A DNA stretch of 64,000 nucleotides from Methanobacteriota archaeon (lineage in GTDB: Archaea > JAADCQ01 > Methanopyri > Methanopyrales > Methanopyraceae), in contig JAMOPO010000052.1 in assembly GCA_027064425.1 (NCBI GenBank), positions 1-64,000 of the forward strand, given 5' to 3'. The notes below the pieces were generated by a model. That model did no database searches, was not told the origin of the DNA, and saw only the letters and a list, made by a program, of their open reading frames with translations. The position numbers and the translations under genes are program-made. Below are positions 36,375-45,852 of the stretch, in pieces; position 1 is the stretch's first letter; every line of letters starts with the position of its first letter.

Positions 36375-38657
36375 ATGGCACGATTCAAGCTCGACTTCGA
36401 GGGCATCAAGATCGAGATCGGGAGCGTCGAGAGCTTCGAACCGGAGGGTGAGGGACCGCACCCCTGCCCCTCCCTGTCGGATCTAAAGGACTGGGACCGG
36501 CGGCTGTTCTCCCGGTACAGGATCGCCGCGTTTCCAGTTTGCGACATGTGTTGTCTCTGCACGTTCGGCCGGTGTAACCTCGCGGAGGGAAGGCGCGGGG
36601 CGTGCGGGATCGATCTCCGCGCCAACGTGGCCCGGATGACCACCATCAAGACGTGCATCGGGGCCGCGTGCCACACCAGCCACGCCCGGCACCTGATCGA
36701 GTACATCCTCGAGAACGTCGGCGACGTGGAGATCGACCTCGGGCCCGAGATCGACGTTAAGATGCCCATCTTCGAGACCCTCCTCGGGTTCGAGCCCGAG
36801 ACGATCTCCGACCTGGAGAAGGGGCTCGAGTACATCGAGCGCGAGCTGACCAAGATCCTCGCCTCCGCCCACATGGGCCAGGAGTCCGACCCGCACGACT
36901 ACGAGTCCAAGGCCCTTCACGCCGGTATGCTCGACAACCTCGCGCTCGAGCTGGCCGACGTGGCCCAGATCGTCGCCTTCGACATGCCCAAGGGCGAGTC
37001 CCCGCTGGTCGAGTTCGGCCCCTTCGCGGCGGACGACTCCAAGCCCTGCATCCTACTCATCGGCCACAACGTCGCGCCCGGTACCGAGGTGCTGGACTAC
37101 CTCGAGGAGCGCGGTCTGGACGAGGAGGTCGAGGTCCTGGGCATCTGCTGCACGGCGTGGGACGCGTCCCGGGTCGAGAAGCGCGCCAAGGTCATCGGGC
37201 CGCTCTCCCGGCAGCTACACTACGTGAGGATGGGCATCGCGGACGTGATCATCCTGGACGAGCAGTGCGTGCGGGCGGACATCGTGGAGGAGGCCAAGGA
37301 GGTGGGCAGCCGCGTTATCACGACGCGGGACGTCCTCATGGGCGGCCTAAGGGACGTCACGGACGAGCCCGCGGACAAGATCGTGGAGAAGATGGCGTCC
37401 GGCGAGTGGATGGCCGTGTACATCGAGGACCTCGAGAAGGCGGCGAAGGTGGCGGTCGAGGTCGCGCTCAGGGTCCACGAGGAGCGTAAAAAGGAGGTCC
37501 CGCGGCCCGACCCGGACGAGATCAAGGGTCACGCGGAGCGCTGCCTGGAGTGCGGTGACTGCGAGCGCGTGTGCCCGAACGACCTCCCGATCGTGGAGGC
37601 GATGCGGAAGGCTCGCGAGGGCGACCTCGAGGACCTGGCCGAGCTCTTCTACCGGTGCGTGGGATGCGCTCGGTGCGAGTCGGAGTGTCCCGCGAGGATC
37701 CCGGTGATGAGGATCATCGAGGACGCCTGGCGCCTGAACGTTCGGAGGGAGCGGTACAAGGTCCGGACGGGTCGCGGTCCGATCAAGGACGTGGAGATCC
37801 GGCAGGTCGGCGGCCCGATCGTCATGGGTGACATCCCGGGAGTCGTCGCGTTCGTCGCCTGCCCGAACTACCCGGATGATATCCGCGAGATCGGTAGGAT
37901 GGTCGAGGAGCTCCTCGAGCGGAACTACATCGTGCTCACCTCCGGCTGCACGGCCATGGCCCTGGGGTACTACACGGACGAGGAGGGTAGGACGCTCTAC
38001 GAGAAGTACGAGGACCGGTTCGACGCCGGCTGCCTCGTGAACACGGGCTCCTGCATCTCGAACGCGCACATCCTCGGCGCCTGCATCAAGATCGCCGCGA
38101 TCTTCGCGAAGAAGCCGCTCAAGGGCAACTTCAAGGAGATCGCGGACTACATCATCAACCGGATCGGCGCGTGCGGCGTGCTCTGGGGCGCCATGAGCCA
38201 GAAGGCCCTCGCGATCTCGACCGGGTTCACGCGCTGGGGCATCCCGATCGTCTACGGGCCGGCCGGGCTCAACTACCAGACCCTGTACATCGGCGACCTG
38301 GACGGCGACTGGACCGTGTACGACGCCCGCACGGGCGAGAAGCGCGAGGAGCACTGCCCGATCCACCTCAAGTACGCGGCCGAGGACTGGCGTGAGGCCC
38401 TCGTCCAGGCCGTGAAGCTGTGCATCCGACCCAACGATACGCCGCAGGGCCGGCAGACCAAGCTGCAGAACTACGTGGAGCTGTACAAGAAGTTCTACAA
38501 CGAGCTCCCGCCCGACCTGCCCCTGTACGTGCGCGACGAGAACGACATCCCGCTCACGCTCAAGGACGAGATCATGGAGTACCTGGAGGAGGTCGGCTGG
38601 GAGCCCCGGGAGCCGATCTCCGAGCCCACGCTCCTGGAGGAGAACGCCCGGGGTTGA
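36375..38657 (+). CDS. cdhA: CODH/ACS alpha subunit (CO dehydrogenase)
   Basis: This 760-aa subunit interconverts CO2 and CO at a Ni-Fe-S C-cluster. The N-terminal Cys group C56, C59, C60, C62, C67, C78 supplies the intersubunit and B-clusters. The expected C-cluster ligands are H231, C259, C298, C525, C560 and C600, with the catalytic lysine at K610. An inserted ferredoxin domain has C390xxC393xxC396xxxC400 and C428xxC431xxC434xxxC438 for two [4Fe-4S] clusters, as in archaeal CdhA. It forms a complex with CdhB and is the first gene of the operon. The ATG at 36375 follows GGTGGTCGTGA. Confidence 0.97.
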   Translation: MARFKLDFEGIKIEIGSVESFEPEGEGPHPCPSLSDLKDWDRRLFSRYRIAAFPVCDMCCLCTFGRCNLAEGRRGACGIDLRANVARMTTIKTCIGAACHTSHARHLIEYILENVGDVEIDLGPEIDVKMPIFETLLGFEPETISDLEKGLEYIERELTKILASAHMGQESDPHDYESKALHAGMLDNLALELADVAQIVAFDMPKGESPLVEFGPFAADDSKPCILLIGHNVAPGTEVLDYLEERGLDEEVEVLGICCTAWDASRVEKRAKVIGPLSRQLHYVRMGIADVIILDEQCVRADIVEEAKEVGSRVITTRDVLMGGLRDVTDEPADKIVEKMASGEWMAVYIEDLEKAAKVAVEVALRVHEERKKEVPRPDPDEIKGHAERCLECGDCERVCPNDLPIVEAMRKAREGDLEDLAELFYRCVGCARCESECPARIPVMRIIEDAWRLNVRRERYKVRTGRGPIKDVEIRQVGGPIVMGDIPGVVAFVACPNYPDDIREIGRMVEELLERNYIVLTSGCTAMALGYYTDEEGRTLYEKYEDRFDAGCLVNTGSCISNAHILGACIKIAAIFAKKPLKGNFKEIADYIINRIGACGVLWGAMSQKALAISTGFTRWGIPIVYGPAGLNYQTLYIGDLDGDWTVYDARTGEKREEHCPIHLKYAAEDWREALVQAVKLCIRPNDTPQGRQTKLQNYVELYKKFYNELPPDLPLYVRDENDIPLTLKDEIMEYLEEVGWEPREPISEPTLLEENARG

Positions 38658-38662
38658 GGCCC

Positions 38663-39142
38663 GTGCCGCTGCCCAAGGACCCGACGCTCATCTACACGAG
38701 CAAGGCCGAGGTCGCCCGGGCCCCGGTCATCCGGAGCCTCCTCTCCCGGGCGGACGAGCCCCTGTTCGTCGTGGGGCCCCGGGCCGTCGAGGACGACGAG
38801 TGGAGGGACCGGGTCGCCCAGCTCATCCGCCGGTTCCGGGCCGGCGCCGTCTGCACGGCCCCGTACGGTGGCGACGACCTGGGCCGCAAGATGGGGATGG
38901 TGGAGCTCGCCACCCTGCTCCAGCGAGACGCCCCCGTCCTCGGCTCGAACCCGGACGTGGTCGTGCTCACGGGCTCCCGAACGGACGTCACGGACCGAGT
39001 ACTCCAGAGCCTTCGGCACGCGCGCCCCGACCTCGTGAAAATCTCGCTGAACCCAGAGTACTGCCCGAGCGCCGACTACTCGCTCCCCACGATGGACATG
39101 GACGACTTCCTCAGGGAGCTGGAGGAGCTCCTGAAGGCGTGA
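38663..39142 (+). CDS. cdhB: CODH/ACS epsilon subunit
   Basis: This 159-aa protein is the small partner of CdhA. It has LIYTSKAEVARAPVIRSLL at the N-terminus, FVVGPRAVEDDEW near residue 32 and a Rossmann-like core with VVVLTGSRTDVTDRVLQSL; the end reads EYCPSADYSLPTMDMDDFL. The GTG at 38663, six bases after the cdhA stop, is the start because upstream in-frame sequence is cdhA coding in another frame. Length fits the family. Confidence 0.92.
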   Translation: MPLPKDPTLIYTSKAEVARAPVIRSLLSRADEPLFVVGPRAVEDDEWRDRVAQLIRRFRAGAVCTAPYGGDDLGRKMGMVELATLLQRDAPVLGSNPDVVVLTGSRTDVTDRVLQSLRHARPDLVKISLNPEYCPSADYSLPTMDMDDFLRELEELLKA

Positions 39143-39146
39143 TCCA

Positions 39147-41072
39147 GTGGTACATGGGGGCCGCGATTCAGTGGAATTGGACGACGTCGAGGTCGAGATC
39201 GGCGAACTCATCGTGGAGGAGAAGCCGGAGGGAGAGGCCGAGGGTCCGACCCACCGCGAGCTTATCCACTGGGATCGAACGCTCACCTCGGTCTACGACC
39301 TGGTCGTCGTCCCGGGCGATTCCGAGGAGGAGCGGCGAGGGACGATCCGCACGATCGCCGAACTCTGCTGCAAGGGAGCGGCGACGCTGATCTCCACCGC
39401 CAAGCTAACGGTGGACCTGCTCCGCCAGACGGGCGGGAGGCTGGAACCCGGATTCGAGGCCGAGACTCCCCTCCCCATCTTCGAGACGCTCCTGGACGAC
39501 GCTCCCGAGCGCGCCGCCGATCTCGAGGCGGGACTCTCCTACGCCGAGCGGGAGCTTACGGCCTCGGTCTCAGAGCTCGCACGCTCCCACTCCGTTGAGG
39601 GTTACGAGGCCGTGGCACTGCACGCCGGCACGATCGGTCTCCTCGCGATGGAGATCGCGGACGCTGCCCTCTCCACGGTGATGGATACCCCGGACGCCGA
39701 GGACGTGTTCGAGATCGGGACCGAAAACCTGCCGAACCGCCCCACGGTCCTGCTGATCGGGCACCTACCCCTCATCGGGAGCGTCATCGTGGAGGAGCTG
39801 GGAACGCTCGCAAGACAGGTGGAATTCGTTGGGCTGACCCACACCGCGTGGCCCGACCGTAGCGACCACGTCAGGGTTGTGGGACCACTCTCGATGTACC
39901 GGGAGTACGTCTCCTCCGGCTTTGCGGACGTTGTGGTCGTGGACGGTGCGTGCCCGGGCGAGGACGTGGTTGAGGCGGCCCGCGGCGCCGGGTCCAAGCT
40001 GGTCGCCACCTTCGGGGCCCGCACAGCGGACCTCCCAGACGTCACCGACCAGCCCGTCGAGGAGGCCGTTGAGACGTTGGTCGCAGAGGAGGACGCGGTC
40101 TACGTCGAGGACCCCATCAAGGCCGTTGAGATCGCCGCGTGGGCGGCACTCCGCGTCGAAGGCTCCCGGGACCGCGGGGAACCGCCCTCGAAGAGCTTCC
40201 GAATCGGCCCACCCACCCGGCTCTCGGACGTGATCATCCGGGACGTGGGCGTACCGGTCGTATCCGGTAACATTCCCGGCATAATCGTGCTGCTATCCTG
40301 CCCCGAGAGGTCGGAGGACGTGGAGGAGCCGGTCAAAATCGCCGAGGCTCTTCTGAAGCGCGGCTACCTCGTGCTGGTCCCCGGCTGCCTGGCCATCGCG
40401 CTGGGCTCTTACCGGGACGAGGACGGGAGGTCCCTGTACGAGCGTTACCCGGACTCGCTCCTCCACGTCGGCCCCTGCACGTCCGCCGCGCACCTGGTCG
40501 GCGCCTGCGTCCGTATCGGAGTGATCTTCGGGAAGCTCTCGATCCGAGGGAAGTTCGCCCGGGTCGCCGACTACGTGCTCAACCGAGTCGGAGCCTGCGT
40601 AGTAGCGTGGGGTAGGGAGTTCTCGGAGCACCTGATCGCGGCCGCCTACGGGGTGACCCGGTGTGGGATTCCGGTGGTGATTGGACCGGACCCGGACGCG
40701 GGGTCCCTGCTAGTCGAAAGGGAGCCGAGGGTTATCGACGCTCGATCGGGTGAGGAGGCGGAAGATCCGACCCCGGAGCATCTCCGGTGCGCGGTCTCTG
40801 ACTGGAAGGAGGCGGCGGTCACGGCCGCGCGGCTCTGCATGCGTCCCAACGACACTCCGGAGTGCCGGCAGAGGAAGGTTGAGGCGTACGTCGAGCTGCA
40901 TCGGGAGCTCTACGGGGAGCTGCCGCCCGACCTTGACCGGCTCATCCGAGACGAGAACGACGTTCCCCCGGCGCTCAAGTCCGAGATCCGGGAGCGGTTG
41001 GAAGAGGCTGGATGGACGCCCGGATCACGCGCGTCCGATCCCACGCTGTTACCAGAGGAAAAGCAGGGGTGA
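39147..41072 (+). CDS. Degenerate CdhA paralog
   Basis: This 641-aa protein aligns with CdhA over nearly its whole length, for example TPLPIFETLLDDAP, VLNRVGACVVAWG and LCMRPNDTPECRQRKVE, but lacks the N-terminal cysteine group and the two-cluster ferredoxin insert. C-cluster ligand positions H206, C269, C414, C444 and C484 are kept. The dangling-iron cysteine pair of CdhA (C258, C259) is replaced by T231-H232, and the catalytic lysine by E494. It is full length without internal stops and sits between cdhB and cdhC. A regulatory, scaffold or modified metal-site function is possible; normal CO dehydrogenase activity is unlikely. Starts GTG at 39147 or 39171. Confidence 0.85.
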   Translation: MVHGGRDSVELDDVEVEIGELIVEEKPEGEAEGPTHRELIHWDRTLTSVYDLVVVPGDSEEERRGTIRTIAELCCKGAATLISTAKLTVDLLRQTGGRLEPGFEAETPLPIFETLLDDAPERAADLEAGLSYAERELTASVSELARSHSVEGYEAVALHAGTIGLLAMEIADAALSTVMDTPDAEDVFEIGTENLPNRPTVLLIGHLPLIGSVIVEELGTLARQVEFVGLTHTAWPDRSDHVRVVGPLSMYREYVSSGFADVVVVDGACPGEDVVEAARGAGSKLVATFGARTADLPDVTDQPVEEAVETLVAEEDAVYVEDPIKAVEIAAWAALRVEGSRDRGEPPSKSFRIGPPTRLSDVIIRDVGVPVVSGNIPGIIVLLSCPERSEDVEEPVKIAEALLKRGYLVLVPGCLAIALGSYRDEDGRSLYERYPDSLLHVGPCTSAAHLVGACVRIGVIFGKLSIRGKFARVADYVLNRVGACVVAWGREFSEHLIAAAYGVTRCGIPVVIGPDPDAGSLLVEREPRVIDARSGEEAEDPTPEHLRCAVSDWKEAAVTAARLCMRPNDTPECRQRKVEAYVELHRELYGELPPDLDRLIRDENDVPPALKSEIRERLEEAGWTPGSRASDPTLLPEEKQG

Positions 41073-41078
41073 GCGCGC

Positions 41079-42485
41079 TTGACGAGCCTCGCGGACCTGC
41101 CCGTGGACGTGAGCCCCCGGCACGAGGGCGAGCGGATCCGCAGCGGGGACATGTACGTGGAGCTCGCCGGCCCGAAGAGCTTCGGCGCCGAGCTCTTCCG
41201 CGTGGTGGACGAGGACGAGATCGAGCCGGACAAGGTCGAGGTGATCGGGCCGGACATTGACGAGATGGAAGAGGGTGAGCGGTACCCGTTCGGCATCCTC
41301 GTCAAGGCGGCCGGGGAGGAGCTGGAGGAGGACGTGGAAGGCGTCCTGGAGCGACGCATCCACGAGTTCTGCAACTACGTGGAGGGGTTCATGCACCTCA
41401 ACCAGCGGGACCAGATCTGGTGCCGCGTGTCCAAGGAGGCGGCCGAGAAGGGCTTCCGGCTCGAGCACCTGGGCATCGCCCTTCGCGAGCTGTTCAAGGA
41501 GGAGTTCGGCAACGTGATCGACGCGATCGAGGTCACTCTGATGACGGACGAGGAGCGCGTGAAGGAGTTCGTGGAGCAGGCTCGAGAGGTGTACAGGGAG
41601 CGGGACGAGCGGGCGCGCGAGCTCTCCGAGGAGGACGTGGACGAGTTCTACGTGTGCCTCATGTGCCAGTCCTTCGCGCCCACGCACGTGTGCGTGATCA
41701 CGCCCGACCGGCCGAGCCTCTGCGGCTCGATCACCTGGCACGACGCCAAGGCGGCGCACAAGATCGACCCGGAGGGCCCGATCTTCCCGATCGAGAAGGG
41801 TGAGTGCCTGGACCCCGAGGCGGGCGAGTACGAGGGCGTGAACGAGGCGGTCAAGGAGCACTCGCAGGGGACGGTGGAGCGGGTTTACCTCCACTCCTGC
41901 CTTGAGTACCCGCACACGAGCTGCGGCTGCTTCCAGGCGATCGTGTTCTACATCCCGGAGGTGGACGGGTTCGGCATCGTCGACCGCGAGTACTCGGGCG
42001 AGACCCCGCTCGGCATGCCCTTCTCCACGATGGCGGGCGAGGCGAGCGGCGGTGAGCAGAAGCCGGGCTTCGTGGGCATCTCGTACGGCTACATGGAGTC
42101 GGACAAGTTCCTCCAGCACGACGGCGGGTGGGAGCGCGTCGTCTGGATGCCCAAGGAGCTGAAAGAGCGGGTGAAGCACGCCATCCCGGACGACCTGTAC
42201 GACAAGATCGCCACGGAGGAGGACGCGACCACGGTCGAGGAGCTCAAGGAGTTCCTGGAGGAGGTCGAGCACCCGGTCGTCGAGCGGTGGGAGGAGGAAG
42301 AGGAGGTTGAGGAGGAGAAGGCCGAGGAGGCGGTCGCCGAGGAGGAAGAGAGGCCGGTGGTGGAGGCGGAGGAGCTGCCCGTCGCGCCCGGTGGTGGTCT
42401 CAACGTGAAGATCGTGCTCAAGAACGCCAAGATCTACGCCGAGAAGGTCATCATCAAGCGCGAGGACAGGGAAGGAAAGAGTTGA
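41079..42485 (+). CDS. cdhC: CODH/ACS beta subunit (acetyl-CoA synthase)
   Basis: This 468-aa subunit builds acetyl-CoA from CO, a methyl group and CoA at the A-cluster. Ligands of its [4Fe-4S] part are C193, C196, C205 and C215, and the distal nickel site is the C282-G283-C284 motif. FSTMAGEASGGEQKPGFVG marks the substrate-binding region. As in archaeal forms it lacks the long N-terminal CODH-binding domain of bacterial AcsB. The C-terminal 90 residues start with a Glu-rich tail (EEEEEVEEEK region) and end in a conserved-looking KIVLKNAKIYAEKVIIK. TTG at 41079 begins the frame. Confidence 0.96.
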   Translation: MTSLADLPVDVSPRHEGERIRSGDMYVELAGPKSFGAELFRVVDEDEIEPDKVEVIGPDIDEMEEGERYPFGILVKAAGEELEEDVEGVLERRIHEFCNYVEGFMHLNQRDQIWCRVSKEAAEKGFRLEHLGIALRELFKEEFGNVIDAIEVTLMTDEERVKEFVEQAREVYRERDERARELSEEDVDEFYVCLMCQSFAPTHVCVITPDRPSLCGSITWHDAKAAHKIDPEGPIFPIEKGECLDPEAGEYEGVNEAVKEHSQGTVERVYLHSCLEYPHTSCGCFQAIVFYIPEVDGFGIVDREYSGETPLGMPFSTMAGEASGGEQKPGFVGISYGYMESDKFLQHDGGWERVVWMPKELKERVKHAIPDDLYDKIATEEDATTVEELKEFLEEVEHPVVERWEEEEEVEEEKAEEAVAEEEERPVVEAEELPVAPGGGLNVKIVLKNAKIYAEKVIIKREDREGKS

Positions 42486-43240
42486 TCCTCGCCTTCACCG
42501 GGAAGGGCGGGACGGGGAAGACCGTCCTCGCCGCCCTCTCCGTCCTCGAGCTCACCGAGCGCGGGCCCGGCGACCTTCTAGTCATCGATGCGGACCCGGA
42601 CGCGAACATGCCGGACGCCCTGGGCGTCGAGCCCGAGACCACGCTGGGCGAGGTTCGGGAGCGGTTCAAGCGCGAGATCGAGGAGGAGCAGCTCCCGCCC
42701 GGCTTTGACAAGCAGGCGTACATGGAGTACCTCGTCATGACCGCCCTCCACGAGACCGAGGACTTCGACCTCCTCGTCATGGGCCGCTCCGAGGGTCGCG
42801 GGTGCTACTGCGCCGTCAATCACTGGCTCCGCCGGGTCATGTCCGACCTGCTCCCCGAGTACGATCTCGTGGTGATGGACTGCGAGGCCGGGCTGGAGCA
42901 CGTCAGCCGCGGCATCATCGACGGCGTCGACCTGGTCCTGATCGTGGTCGATCACTCCCGGAAGGCTCTGCGGACCGCCGCCCGGATCGTGGAGCTCATC
43001 GACGAGCTCGAGTCCGAGGTGGGCGAGGTTCGGGTCGTTGCGAACCGCGTCACGGAGAGGGAGTACCGCGTGATCCGGCGCGAGGGGGAGCGGATGGGGC
43101 TCTCCTTCCTCGGCCGGGTTCGACCGGACGAGGAGCTGGTCGAGCTGGAGCTGCGCGGTCGGCCGCTCACCGAGCTCTCCCCCGACTCCAAGGCCCGGCG
43201 CGACGTCCGGGAGATCCTCTCCCGGGCGGGGGTGGTGTAG
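42482..43240 (+). CDS. cooC: CooC-type nickel insertion ATPase (first copy)
   Basis: This 252-aa MinD/SIMIBI-class ATPase probably helps insert nickel into CODH or ACS. It has the deviant Walker A GKGGTGKT at residues 7-14, VIDADPDANMPDALG, and a C108-Y-C110 motif equivalent to the nickel-binding CxC of CooC dimers. The start TTG overlaps the cdhC stop as TTGA, and cdhD starts directly after its stop, so it is embedded in the operon between ACS and the corrinoid protein genes. Confidence 0.9.
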   Translation: MILAFTGKGGTGKTVLAALSVLELTERGPGDLLVIDADPDANMPDALGVEPETTLGEVRERFKREIEEEQLPPGFDKQAYMEYLVMTALHETEDFDLLVMGRSEGRGCYCAVNHWLRRVMSDLLPEYDLVVMDCEAGLEHVSRGIIDGVDLVLIVVDHSRKALRTAARIVELIDELESEVGEVRVVANRVTEREYRVIRREGERMGLSFLGRVRPDEELVELELRGRPLTELSPDSKARRDVREILSRAGVV

Positions 43241-44446
43241 TTGTCCGAGCGGGAGAGGGTCGACGAGCTCCTGGAGAAGCTGCTGAACCGCGTTCTCGGC
43301 GAGGGCGGGGTCGAGGAGGTCGAGCTCCGGAACGTTTCGATCGAGGTGGAGGAGCTGGAGCTGGACCTGCGCACGGTCGCTCAGGCGCTGCCCCGCGAGG
43401 TCTGGGAGCGGCTGGTCAAGCCCCGGGCGGAGGAGGCTCGGCGGGAGGTGGAGGTACCCGAGTACGAGCCTCCGGTCGAGGAGTACGAGGGGGAGGTGGC
43501 CGAGGTCCAGCTCGGGGCGACGCGCTCCGAGGGTGGCACCCGCGACCGGGTGGTCAAGCTCGGTGGCGAGCGCGCTTACTTCGTCTTCGAGGGCCCGCGA
43601 CCGAACCCGCCCGTCGTCACGTTCGACGTGTTCGACACCCCGGACGTCGGCATTCCCGGCCCCATCCGGGAGGAGCTGGGGGACGTGGTCGAGGACCCCG
43701 TGGACTGGGCTAGGACGGTCGTGAAGCGGTACGACGTGGACGTGATCACGCTCCACCTGGTGAGCACGTCCCCGAAGCTGCACGACGCGCCCGTGGAGGA
43801 GGCGATGAAGACCCTGGAGGACGTGCTCGACGCGGTGAAGGTCCCGGTCATCGTGGGCGGCTCGGGCGACCCGGAGAAGGACGTCGAGCTGTTCGTGAAG
43901 GCGGCCGAGGTGTGCGAGGGCGAGCGGGTGATGCTCTCCTCGATCAACGAGGACATGGACTTCGAGCGGGTGGTCGACGCGGCCAAGGAGTACGGGCACG
44001 TGGTCCTGACCTTCGCACCGGTCGATGTTAACATGATGAAAACCCTGAACAAGAAGGTGCTCAACCGGGGCCTCTCGAAGGAGGACGTGGTGATGGACCC
44101 GACCACGTGCGCGCTCGGCTACGGCATCGAGTACACGGTTGACGTGATGACCCGGATCCGGCTCGCCGCGCTCCGCGGTGACGAGTACCTCCAGATGCCC
44201 ATCTCGAGCGGCTCGACCAACGCGTGGGCGGCCCGAGAGGCCTGGATGAAGGAGGAGTCCTGGGGCCCGCGCGAGTACCGGGGCCCGCTCTGGGAGGCCG
44301 TGACCGCGACCACGGTCGCCCTGTGCGGCGCCGACCTCCTGATGATGTTCCACCCCTGGGCCGTCCGGGTCGTCCAAGAGGCGCTCGAGCACATGGGTCG
44401 CGAGCGGAAGGGTGGGGACGCCTACGTCACGGACTTCATCGCGTAG
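43241..44446 (+). CDS. cdhD: CODH/ACS delta subunit (corrinoid protein small subunit)
   Basis: This 401-aa TIM-barrel subunit pairs with CdhE and carries the corrinoid/methyl group between tetrahydromethanopterin and ACS. Segments VTFDVFDTPDVGIPGPIREELGD (in parts near residue 125), LVSTSPKLHDAP and VGGSGDPEKDVELFVKAAEV are typical. The C-terminal part ends with AALCGADLLMMFHP-like residues. It starts with TTG directly after the cooC stop and ends 11 bases before cdhE. Confidence 0.94.
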   Translation: MSERERVDELLEKLLNRVLGEGGVEEVELRNVSIEVEELELDLRTVAQALPREVWERLVKPRAEEARREVEVPEYEPPVEEYEGEVAEVQLGATRSEGGTRDRVVKLGGERAYFVFEGPRPNPPVVTFDVFDTPDVGIPGPIREELGDVVEDPVDWARTVVKRYDVDVITLHLVSTSPKLHDAPVEEAMKTLEDVLDAVKVPVIVGGSGDPEKDVELFVKAAEVCEGERVMLSSINEDMDFERVVDAAKEYGHVVLTFAPVDVNMMKTLNKKVLNRGLSKEDVVMDPTTCALGYGIEYTVDVMTRIRLAALRGDEYLQMPISSGSTNAWAAREAWMKEESWGPREYRGPLWEAVTATTVALCGADLLMMFHPWAVRVVQEALEHMGRERKGGDAYVTDFIA

Positions 44447-44457
44447 GGGGGCCCGGG

Positions 44458-45852
44458 ATGCCCGAGGTCAGCGCCATGGACGTGTACAAGCTCCTCCCCA
44501 AGTCCAACTGCGGGGCCTGCGGCTGCAAGACCTGCATGGAGTTCGCGACCAAGCTGGTCAACCGGGAGGCCGACCCGGAGGACTGCCCCAACCTGGACGA
44601 GGAGGCCCTGGAGAAGCTCCGCGAGCTGCTCGCCCCGCCCATCCGCGAGGTCTCCATCTGCGAGGGCGATCGGAGGGTGGTCGTCGGAGGCGACGAGGTG
44701 CTCTTCCGGCACGAGCTCTCGTACTTCAACCCGCCCCCCGTCTTCATCGCCGTCTACGACGACATGGAGGAGGACGAGCTGCGCGAGAAGGTGGAGCGCG
44801 CCCAGGAGTTCCAGGTCGAGCGAGTGGGTGAGACCCTCCGGGTGGACGGGCTCGCCGTCGTCTCCCGGACCGGGGACCCCGAGCGCTTCGCAGCGGCCGT
44901 GGAGACGGCCGTCGAGCACTCCGAGGACCTCGCGATCGCCCTCGTGTCCCAGAGCCCCGACGTGCTGGAGTCGGGGCTGGACGTGTTCGACGAGCGCCCG
45001 CTGCTCTACCCGTGCACGGAGGAGAACCGAGACGACATGATCGAGCTCGCGGCGGAGCACGAGTGCCCCCTAGGGCTTCACGCGACCGAGGTCGAGGACC
45101 TGGTGGAGCTCGCGGCTCACGCCCGCGAGCGGGTGGAGGATCTCCTGCTGGACCCGGGGACGGAGCTCGGCCCGCACGACGTGGTCGCCACGACGGACAA
45201 GCTGGCCGAGCTCCGGAAGGCCGCCATCGAGGAGGAGTTCGAGCTCCTCGGGTACCCGACGCTGGTCACGACCTTCCCGTACCGGTTCCTGGAGGATGAT
45301 CCGGTGGAGGCCGCGCGGCGCGAGTCGTACCTGGCGTCCGCGTGCGTGCTCCGCTACGCGGACGCGCTGATCATGGACACCCTCGAGCCCTGGGCGCTGC
45401 TCCCCGTCCTGACCCAGCGCCAGTGCATATACACGGACCCGCGCGAGCCGCAGGAGGTGGACCCGGGCCTCTACAAGATCGGGGACCCGGACGAGCACTC
45501 GCCCGTGCTCGTGACCACGAACTTCACCCTCACGTACCACTGCGTGGCGGACGACCTGGAGAGCGCGGACGTCGACTGCTGGCTCCTCGTGATCGACACG
45601 GGCGGGCTGGCCGTCGACGTCAGCGTGGCGGGTGGGCAGTTCAACGGGCAGGCGGTGAAGGAGGCCCTGGAGGAGTTCAACGTCGAGGAGAAGGTGAATC
45701 ACCGGGTGCTCGTGATCCCGGGCAAGGCCGCGGCGGTAAAGGGGGACGTGGAGGACGCGACCGGTTGGAAGGTCGTGATCGGCACCCAGGACTCCTCCGA
45801 GCTCCCGGAGTTCCTTGAGAAGGAGGGCCTGCTCAGGATAGAGGAGGGATAG
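44458..45852 (+). CDS. cdhE: CODH/ACS gamma subunit (corrinoid iron-sulfur protein)
   Basis: This 464-aa subunit has an N-terminal four-helix [4Fe-4S] domain with C18, C21, C26 and C43 (motif NCGACGCKTC), a central TIM barrel with AIEEEFELLGYPTLVTTFPYRF, and a C-terminal corrinoid-binding Rossmann-like domain with YKIGDPDEHSPVLVTTNFTL and AVKGDVEDATGWKVVIGTQD. The ATG at 44458 follows GGGGGGCCC. It completes the five canonical subunits of the complex. Confidence 0.95.
   Translation: MPEVSAMDVYKLLPKSNCGACGCKTCMEFATKLVNREADPEDCPNLDEEALEKLRELLAPPIREVSICEGDRRVVVGGDEVLFRHELSYFNPPPVFIAVYDDMEEDELREKVERAQEFQVERVGETLRVDGLAVVSRTGDPERFAAAVETAVEHSEDLAIALVSQSPDVLESGLDVFDERPLLYPCTEENRDDMIELAAEHECPLGLHATEVEDLVELAAHARERVEDLLLDPGTELGPHDVVATTDKLAELRKAAIEEEFELLGYPTLVTTFPYRFLEDDPVEAARRESYLASACVLRYADALIMDTLEPWALLPVLTQRQCIYTDPREPQEVDPGLYKIGDPDEHSPVLVTTNFTLTYHCVADDLESADVDCWLLVIDTGGLAVDVSVAGGQFNGQAVKEALEEFNVEEKVNHRVLVIPGKAAAVKGDVEDATGWKVVIGTQDSSELPEFLEKEGLLRIEEG

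Follow-up and report, generated by a model that had tools for sequence, protein, structure and literature searches.

A catalytically degenerate CdhA paralog in the ACDS operon of Methanopyrus, a candidate A1-like docking subunit for ACS

Introduction

The CODH/ACS complex is believed to go back to the last universal common ancestor, and the CODHs form homodimers. In the archaeal complex, ACDS, the CODH subunit is CdhA, a Ni-CODH of clade A (Cdh-type). The way in which archaeal ACS can function with no A1 domain became clear structurally only in 2024, for Methanosarcina, in which Rossmann fold 2 of CdhA substitutes for that domain (PMC11474084). According to the cryo-EM structure of CODH/ACS from M. 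thermophila, residues Arg500, Leu504, Val507 and Phe601 of CODH make up a CO alcove above the A-cluster and a choke point in the channel, and in this way stand in for the A1 domain of bacterial ACS, while the C-terminal extension of CODH contacts ACS (PMC11474084).

Several CODH-like proteins that depart from the canonical enzyme have been described. Ni-CODH groups A-4 and A-6 are bacterial members of clade A that are associated with ACS; they keep Cys2 to Cys5 and have lost Cys1 and the acid-base residues, with the C-cluster His changed to D or N, Cys1 changed to P or S, and the E/F-cluster cysteines kept (F is incomplete in A-6) (PMC6344411). In CooS-V of Carboxydothermus hydrogenoformans, small changes to the CODH scaffold, including the loss of one cluster Cys, have produced a protein that carries an Fe/S/O cluster and is active on hydroxylamine but not on CO (PMC9311411). 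The Ni-CODH classification filtered out sequences with deletions like those of the protein considered here (PMC6344411), and we found no description of a second CdhA in Methanopyrus in the open-access literature.

Results

A second CdhA-like gene in the ACDS operon

The window analyzed is a stretch of 64,000 nucleotides of contig JAMOPO010000052.1 (assembly GCA_027064425.1), and all coordinates refer to its forward strand unless another sequence is named. The ACDS operon in this window is tightly packed. The cdhA gene (36375-38657) encodes a canonical CODH alpha subunit of 760 amino acids with all clusters and catalytic residues, and cdhB (38663-39142; Pfam PF02552), whose start codon is uncertain, encodes the epsilon subunit. 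The gene that we call cdhA2 (39147-41072) follows after a gap of 4 bases, and a further gap of 6 bases separates it from cdhC (41079-42485). The product of cdhC, the ACS beta subunit of 468 amino acids, has the Pfam domains CdhC and ACS_CODH_B_C only and is without the A1 domain. The next gene, which overlaps cdhC, encodes a CooC-type ATPase (42482-43240; CbiA/AAA_31), a kind of protein that acts in nickel insertion; cdhD (43241-44446) and cdhE (44461-45852), both recognized by domain profiles, come after it.

Open frame, homology, profile matches and synteny together identify cdhA2 as the gene for a catalytically degenerate CdhA paralog of 641 amino acids; a search of the source genome found no further CdhA-like gene beyond it and cdhA. 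The frame is open from a GTG start to a stop codon at 41070-41072. The exact start is uncertain (GTG 39147, GTG 39171 or TTG 39177); the first residues vary among the ortholog frames, all of which align from near a conserved EIGEL/EIREL motif that belongs to the CdhA N-terminal extension. The product is 43% identical to the CdhA encoded upstream and falls within the Prismane/CODH superfamily (Pfam PF03063, 74.1 bits, gathering score 27). With the CdhA model TIGR00314 it scores 374 bits, below the curated cut-off of 781 bits, and the adjoining CdhA scores 1014. A first-pass annotation of this DNA had reported a full-length CdhA-like frame between cdhB and cdhC, which we can confirm, since a frame of this kind (641 amino acids here) occupies the same place in four genomes. 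Homology, synteny across the four genomes and dN/dS (see below) rule out a chance open reading frame in GC-rich DNA.

Searches against Pfam and NCBIfam profiles found no DNA-binding, signalling or regulatory domain in CdhA2. It is very unlikely, in our view, that CdhA2 serves as a nickel or CO sensor or as a chaperone in CODH/ACS maturation. The CooC-type ATPase encoded in this operon and the retained set of metal ligands would suit such a role, but the lack of a regulatory domain, the constraint on the ACS face and the presence of canonical CdhA without cdhA2 in one Methanopyrus genome (G003) and in other methanogens argue against it.

Residues and clusters kept or lost

We aligned CdhA2 and its orthologs (n=4) with 55 canonical archaeal CdhA and two CooS proteins. 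The C-cluster sites established by the CODH structures, in CODH-II numbering H261, C294/C295, C333, C446, C476 and C526, served as reference points. Five of the six ligands are kept in all four orthologs, namely His206 (H261; 39762-39764), Cys269 (C333; 39951-39953), Cys385 (C446; 40299-40301), Cys414 (C476; 40386-40388) and the nickel ligand Cys444 (C526; 40476-40478), and the complete set of one His and five Cys is not present. The pair Cys258-Cys259 of CdhA (C294/C295) is replaced in all four by Thr231-His232 (39837-39842); the ligand lost is Cys259, now His232, with Cys258 as its neighbor. The site of the catalytic Lys (K563 in CODH-II, K610 in CdhA) is occupied by His495 (40629-40631), and the active-site histidines H93, H96 and H99 (His100, His103 and His106 of CdhA) have become L81, T84 and L87, again in every ortholog. 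The N-terminal loop with the B- and D-cluster cysteines and the ferredoxin insert that carries the E and F clusters are deleted in all four; the insert, about 100 amino acids long in CdhA, is missing at 40182-40220, and with these deletions the cysteines of the B, D, E and F clusters are all gone.

Most of what the first-pass annotation had said of these residues holds in all four orthologs: the absence of a six-Cys N-terminal group and an eight-Cys ferredoxin insert, the change of C258-C259 to T231-H232, and the ligands H206, C269, C414 and C444. Two of its assignments have to be corrected. It named C484 as a ligand and overlooked C385, the real fourth Cys; C484 equals C600 of CdhA, which is Val in 37 of the 55 canonical sequences, and we rejected it. 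It also placed E494 at catalytic K610, where the alignment gives H495 in all four orthologs, with E494 next to it. We further considered E494 as a Glu ligand of the kind found in the hybrid cluster protein (HCP) and rejected it on the residue spacing of HCP; E494 matches the Ser-Glu of ACS A1. HCP and Fe/S/O enzymes like CooS-V are marked by a non-Ni cluster and by Glu as a ligand where CODH has a Cys; CdhA2 has His232 and not Glu.

From the alignment, a protein that has lost a cluster ligand, its acid-base residues and every part of the B/D/E/F electron wire is predicted to be unable to carry out CdhA-type CO oxidation, which agrees with the earlier view that this is not a normal CODH. These losses set CdhA2 apart from CdhA, its direct ancestor, with which it has the fold family, operon and ACS-binding residues in common. 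CdhA2 resembles groups A-4 and A-6 in belonging to an ACS-associated clade A and in keeping Cys2 to Cys5 without Cys1 and the acid-base residues, but it keeps His206 and has His at Cys1 (PMC6344411). Like CooS-V, it has a CODH scaffold with one cluster Cys missing and is expected to have no CO activity; unlike CdhA2, CooS-V is CooS-type, is not a duplicate within an ACDS operon and is without the ACS-docking features (PMC9311411).

The CooS-V precedent of an altered CODH scaffold (PMC9311411), five of six C-cluster ligands kept throughout, and the conservation of the new His232 and His495 raise the question of whether CdhA2 could be an enzyme whose cluster has been put to a new use, acting like CooS-V on some small substrate that is not CO (e.g. 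hydroxylamine or NO). We consider this unlikely, given that the protein has neither a B nor a D cluster, nor a ferredoxin domain, for electron delivery and that constraint lies on the ACS-facing half and not around the cluster, where degeneration has affected both Rossmann fold 1 and the helical wall of the site.

Distribution, origin and selection

The order cdhB-cdhA2-cdhC is found in four of five Methanopyrus genomes, including the source; these five make up our sample of the class Methanopyri. The G001 ortholog lies at 685719-687617. In G003, cdhC comes immediately after cdhB, and cdhA2 was not found anywhere else in that genome. The two genes lie about 25 bases apart there (contig C51, 5312-5337; locus L018), with no gene remnant between them. 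The absence from G003 means that cdhA2 is not essential to the genus and that the complex works without it there. Outside Methanopyrus, no cdhA2-type protein was present among the matches listed from 36, 151 and 392 genomes of three other archaeal phyla and 297 genomes sampled domain-wide (about 880 archaeal genomes), and on this basis we rejected an ancient second CdhA common to other methanogens. Almost all of those matches lay in CdhA frames of about 730-900 amino acids and were interrupted by the ferredoxin insert; the rest were short fragments.

In a tree of the shared columns, cdhA2 and Methanopyrus CdhA form one clade with support of 100/99. Judged from this tree, cdhA2 is a duplicate of cdhA, its parent, made in the Methanopyrus lineage. 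The cdhA2 stem measures 1.67 substitutions per site and distances within cdhA2 are about 0.3, which indicates a burst of change in the duplicate and then a settling. The duplication may have taken place before the split of G003, with later loss there, or after it (node support 62/87; AU p=0.26).

The dN/dS ratio (YN00) is about 0.15 for cdhA2, 0.06 for cdhA and 0.065 for cdhC, as determined for the G001-G002 pair only, because dS is near saturation in distant pairs. The value for cdhA2 is about 2.4 times that of cdhA, and by this measure the gene is under purifying selection that is looser than that on the cdhA enzyme. The first-pass annotation was right in expecting selection on the open frame, and its expectation that close relatives would have the gene intact holds for four Methanopyrus genomes and fails for G003. 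The idea of a broken or decaying pseudogene found no support, on the same dN/dS and the same intactness.

It is also most improbable that cdhA2 is a relaxed duplicate heading for loss and without a function of its own. Such a reading could draw on the looser selection and on the fact that the gene was lost, or never gained, in G003, but it has largely been refuted already by the low dN/dS. In addition, cdhA2 is intact in four genomes at 68-87% identity with 61% of its sites invariant, and its change is directional, towards ACS A1 (see below).

Elsewhere we observed an apparently decaying second CODH within one genus. In family f34 a second cdhA appears in pieces, as short open frames, in three genomes (G108 C1 938510-940485, G127 C7 31721-33824 and G452 C1 1309268-1309777), and in the f34 genomes G088 and G068 it is intact.

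Constraint on the ACS-binding half

In order to see where constraint falls, the columns that are invariant in the 55 canonical CdhA were scored by region of cdhA2. Rossmann fold 2 and the C-terminus together keep 43 of 61 such columns, compared with 16 of 48 in the helical domain and Rossmann fold 1 (Fisher p=2e-4; p=5e-4 when active-site residues are left out). Taken singly, Rossmann fold 2 keeps 31/48 and Rossmann fold 1 10/21, and the N-terminal helical region (51-200), at 6/27, is the worst kept. The C-terminal extension (40707-41069) keeps 12 of 13 invariant CdhA residues.

The residues of the CO alcove are among those retained. Arg365, Val369 and Val372 of helix alphaA (40239-40262) equal R500, L504 and V507 of M. 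thermophila and R142, I146 and V149 of Moorella ACS, and Phe461 (40527-40529), the Phe of the alcove and channel choke point, equals F601 and F229, respectively; all four residues are present in all four orthologs. In CdhA the counterparts of R365, V372 and F461 are R476, V483 and F577, which occur in 55 of 55 sequences and are not found in CooS. At the position of Leu504, Methanopyrus CdhA has Gly, and cdhA2 and ACS A1 have an aliphatic residue. By alignment, then, CdhA2 has the docking features of CdhA, the alcove Arg/Val/Phe and the C-terminal extension, and these comparisons show an apparent ACS-gripping half of CdhA that has been kept and specialized. Folding needs could explain part of the retention in Rossmann fold 2.

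Apparent convergence of Rossmann fold 2 on the A1 domain

In Rossmann fold 2 (40206-40706), the ACS-facing domain, the CdhA score of cdhA2 has dropped by half and the match to the CooS model is gone. With NCBIfam ACS models, the four cdhA2 score 51-60 bits and five CdhA 39-51.5 bits, and in a direct comparison with the ACS of PDB 6yua, cdhA2 scores 41.2 bits and CdhA 21.5. When each protein is given its own best alignment, local scores against ACS A1 are 144-154 for the four cdhA2 and 84-128 for all 55 CdhA. Two nulls in which CdhA was randomly changed at the same columns gave 66±11 or 82±14, and none of 1000 replicates reached the cdhA2 score. In an alignment fitted to cdhA2, 16 ACS-A1 residues are gained and 3 lost. 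With Methanocaldococcus-type A1 domains as queries, the four cdhA2 score 103-173 in comparison with a CdhA range of 77-155: the G000 protein exceeds this range with every query except one, two others lie near its upper end and that of G004 lies inside it, and the size of the A1-likeness effect therefore depends on the reference.

The alphaA motif of bacterial-type A1, R-x-[LV]-G-V-P-[LV]-V-x-G-x-I-P, is likewise found in cdhA2 along with the alcove Arg/aliphatic/Val/Phe, and the alphaA and alphaB residues of A1 that contact the A-cluster have matches in it at the level of sequence alignment. CdhA2 differs from A1 in being a separate full-length protein that is not fused to the A2-A3 domains of ACS, and in keeping Rossmann fold 1, four cluster Cys and the CdhA C-terminal extension. 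A tree of the Rossmann 2 domain joins A1 and cdhA2 with 100/100 support on very long branches, and the alternative of cdhA2 with Methanopyrus CdhA is not rejected (p=0.34). We found no A1-bearing ACS in the Methanopyrus genomes. Because the whole-protein tree puts cdhA2 with Methanopyrus CdhA and no A1-bearing ACS was found in the genus, we read the A1-likeness as apparent convergence rather than descent.

Some other methanogen genomes have both an A1-bearing ACS (about 740-770 amino acids) and an A1-less CdhC (loci L081-L089 in families f22 and f42, of Methanocaldococcus type). One such ACS is encoded at G216 C1 147347-149368, and in some genomes both forms lie in or near the same cdh cluster. 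These genomes run contrary to the statement in the 2024 cryo-EM paper that no methanogen has the A1 domain (PMC11474084).

A degenerate CdhA with the opposite pattern

A degenerate CdhA of the archaeal family f73, encoded in tandem with cdhA (L050 4940-7669, reverse strand; L051 4360-6288, forward strand), serves as a control. It keeps the B-cluster and ferredoxin cysteines and has lost all C-cluster ligands, the catalytic Lys and the ACS alcove. Its stem branch is 2.2 substitutions per site, its invariant columns are kept without regional bias (24/61 vs 25/48), and its Rossmann fold 2 is less like Clostridium A1 than that of any CdhA. Since its losses are the opposite of those of cdhA2, retention of cluster Cys and A1-likeness are not automatic in a degenerating CdhA. 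The f73 protein is a mirror-image pseudo-CODH and may serve an asymmetric CODH as a partner in electron transfer. A common origin of the two paralogs was tried and rejected (common clade, p=0.001).

The f73 pair has a bearing on whether CdhA2 pairs with CdhA as the inactive half of an alpha-alpha' heterodimer, which would be an asymmetric CODH core with one active site per dimer. The tandem of an intact and a degenerate CdhA recurs there, and cdhA2 is co-encoded with CdhA, a member of a homodimeric family. We nonetheless regard a heterodimer as improbable, because the helical region with the D-cluster dimer contact is the worst kept part of cdhA2, the D/B loop is deleted, and G003 is without cdhA2, so that CdhA must homodimerize there.

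The intact f73 CdhA (L050 1676-4924, reverse strand) has 1082 amino acids and a long insert in the ferredoxin region with extra cysteine motifs, like structural group A-5 (PMC6344411).

Discussion

Selective retention of the ACS-binding half, converging on ACS A1, is the main pattern in cdhA2, and one that the first-pass annotation missed. Of the roles which that annotation proposed, the best match is a scaffold or regulator that has a modified metal site (five of the six ligands kept, with Cys changed to His in all four orthologs); for a Ni or CO sensor we found no specific evidence, such as a DNA-binding or signalling domain. On balance, we are inclined to think that CdhA2 is a non-catalytic, ACS-docking, A1-like structural subunit of the Methanopyrus ACDS, probably with an Fe-S-type cluster. 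The narrow spacing from cdhB and cdhC, the shared position in four genomes and the identical loss of catalytic and electron-transfer residues in every ortholog speak for this reading, and the absence of the gene from G003 speaks against it. CdhA2 would dock on CdhC, the A1-less protein encoded 6 bases downstream, and would cover its A-cluster as A1 does in bacterial ACS, so that ACS would have an additional docking place without CO production. The five kept ligands together with His232 would hold a non-catalytic Fe-S-type cluster that stabilizes the fold. One possible benefit is that ACS could rest there, protected or carrying its methyl group, in the intervals when it is engaged with neither CdhA nor the corrinoid protein; A-cluster protection, CO gating and holding of methyl-ACS are alternatives for the step that may benefit. 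An AlphaFold model of cdhA2 built from the four sequences had a mean pLDDT of 51 and a pTM of 0.42, which is too low to be of use, and the role proposed here rests on sequence.

We put forward a more specific reading tentatively, at somewhat short of even confidence, namely that a stand-alone A1 has been re-invented independently in Methanopyrus. A duplicated CODH would have become a CO-alcove cap for an A1-less ACS, ACS would alternate between CdhA and CdhA2, and the cluster-bearing but unwired site of CdhA2 would protect or gate the A-cluster.

Annotations that count cdhA copies count a non-CODH in Methanopyrus. If the proposed role is correct, a hyperthermophilic methanogen would show that the docking and capping function of CODH is separable from catalysis, and there would be a testable model for how the bacterial A1 domain might have arisen from a CODH.
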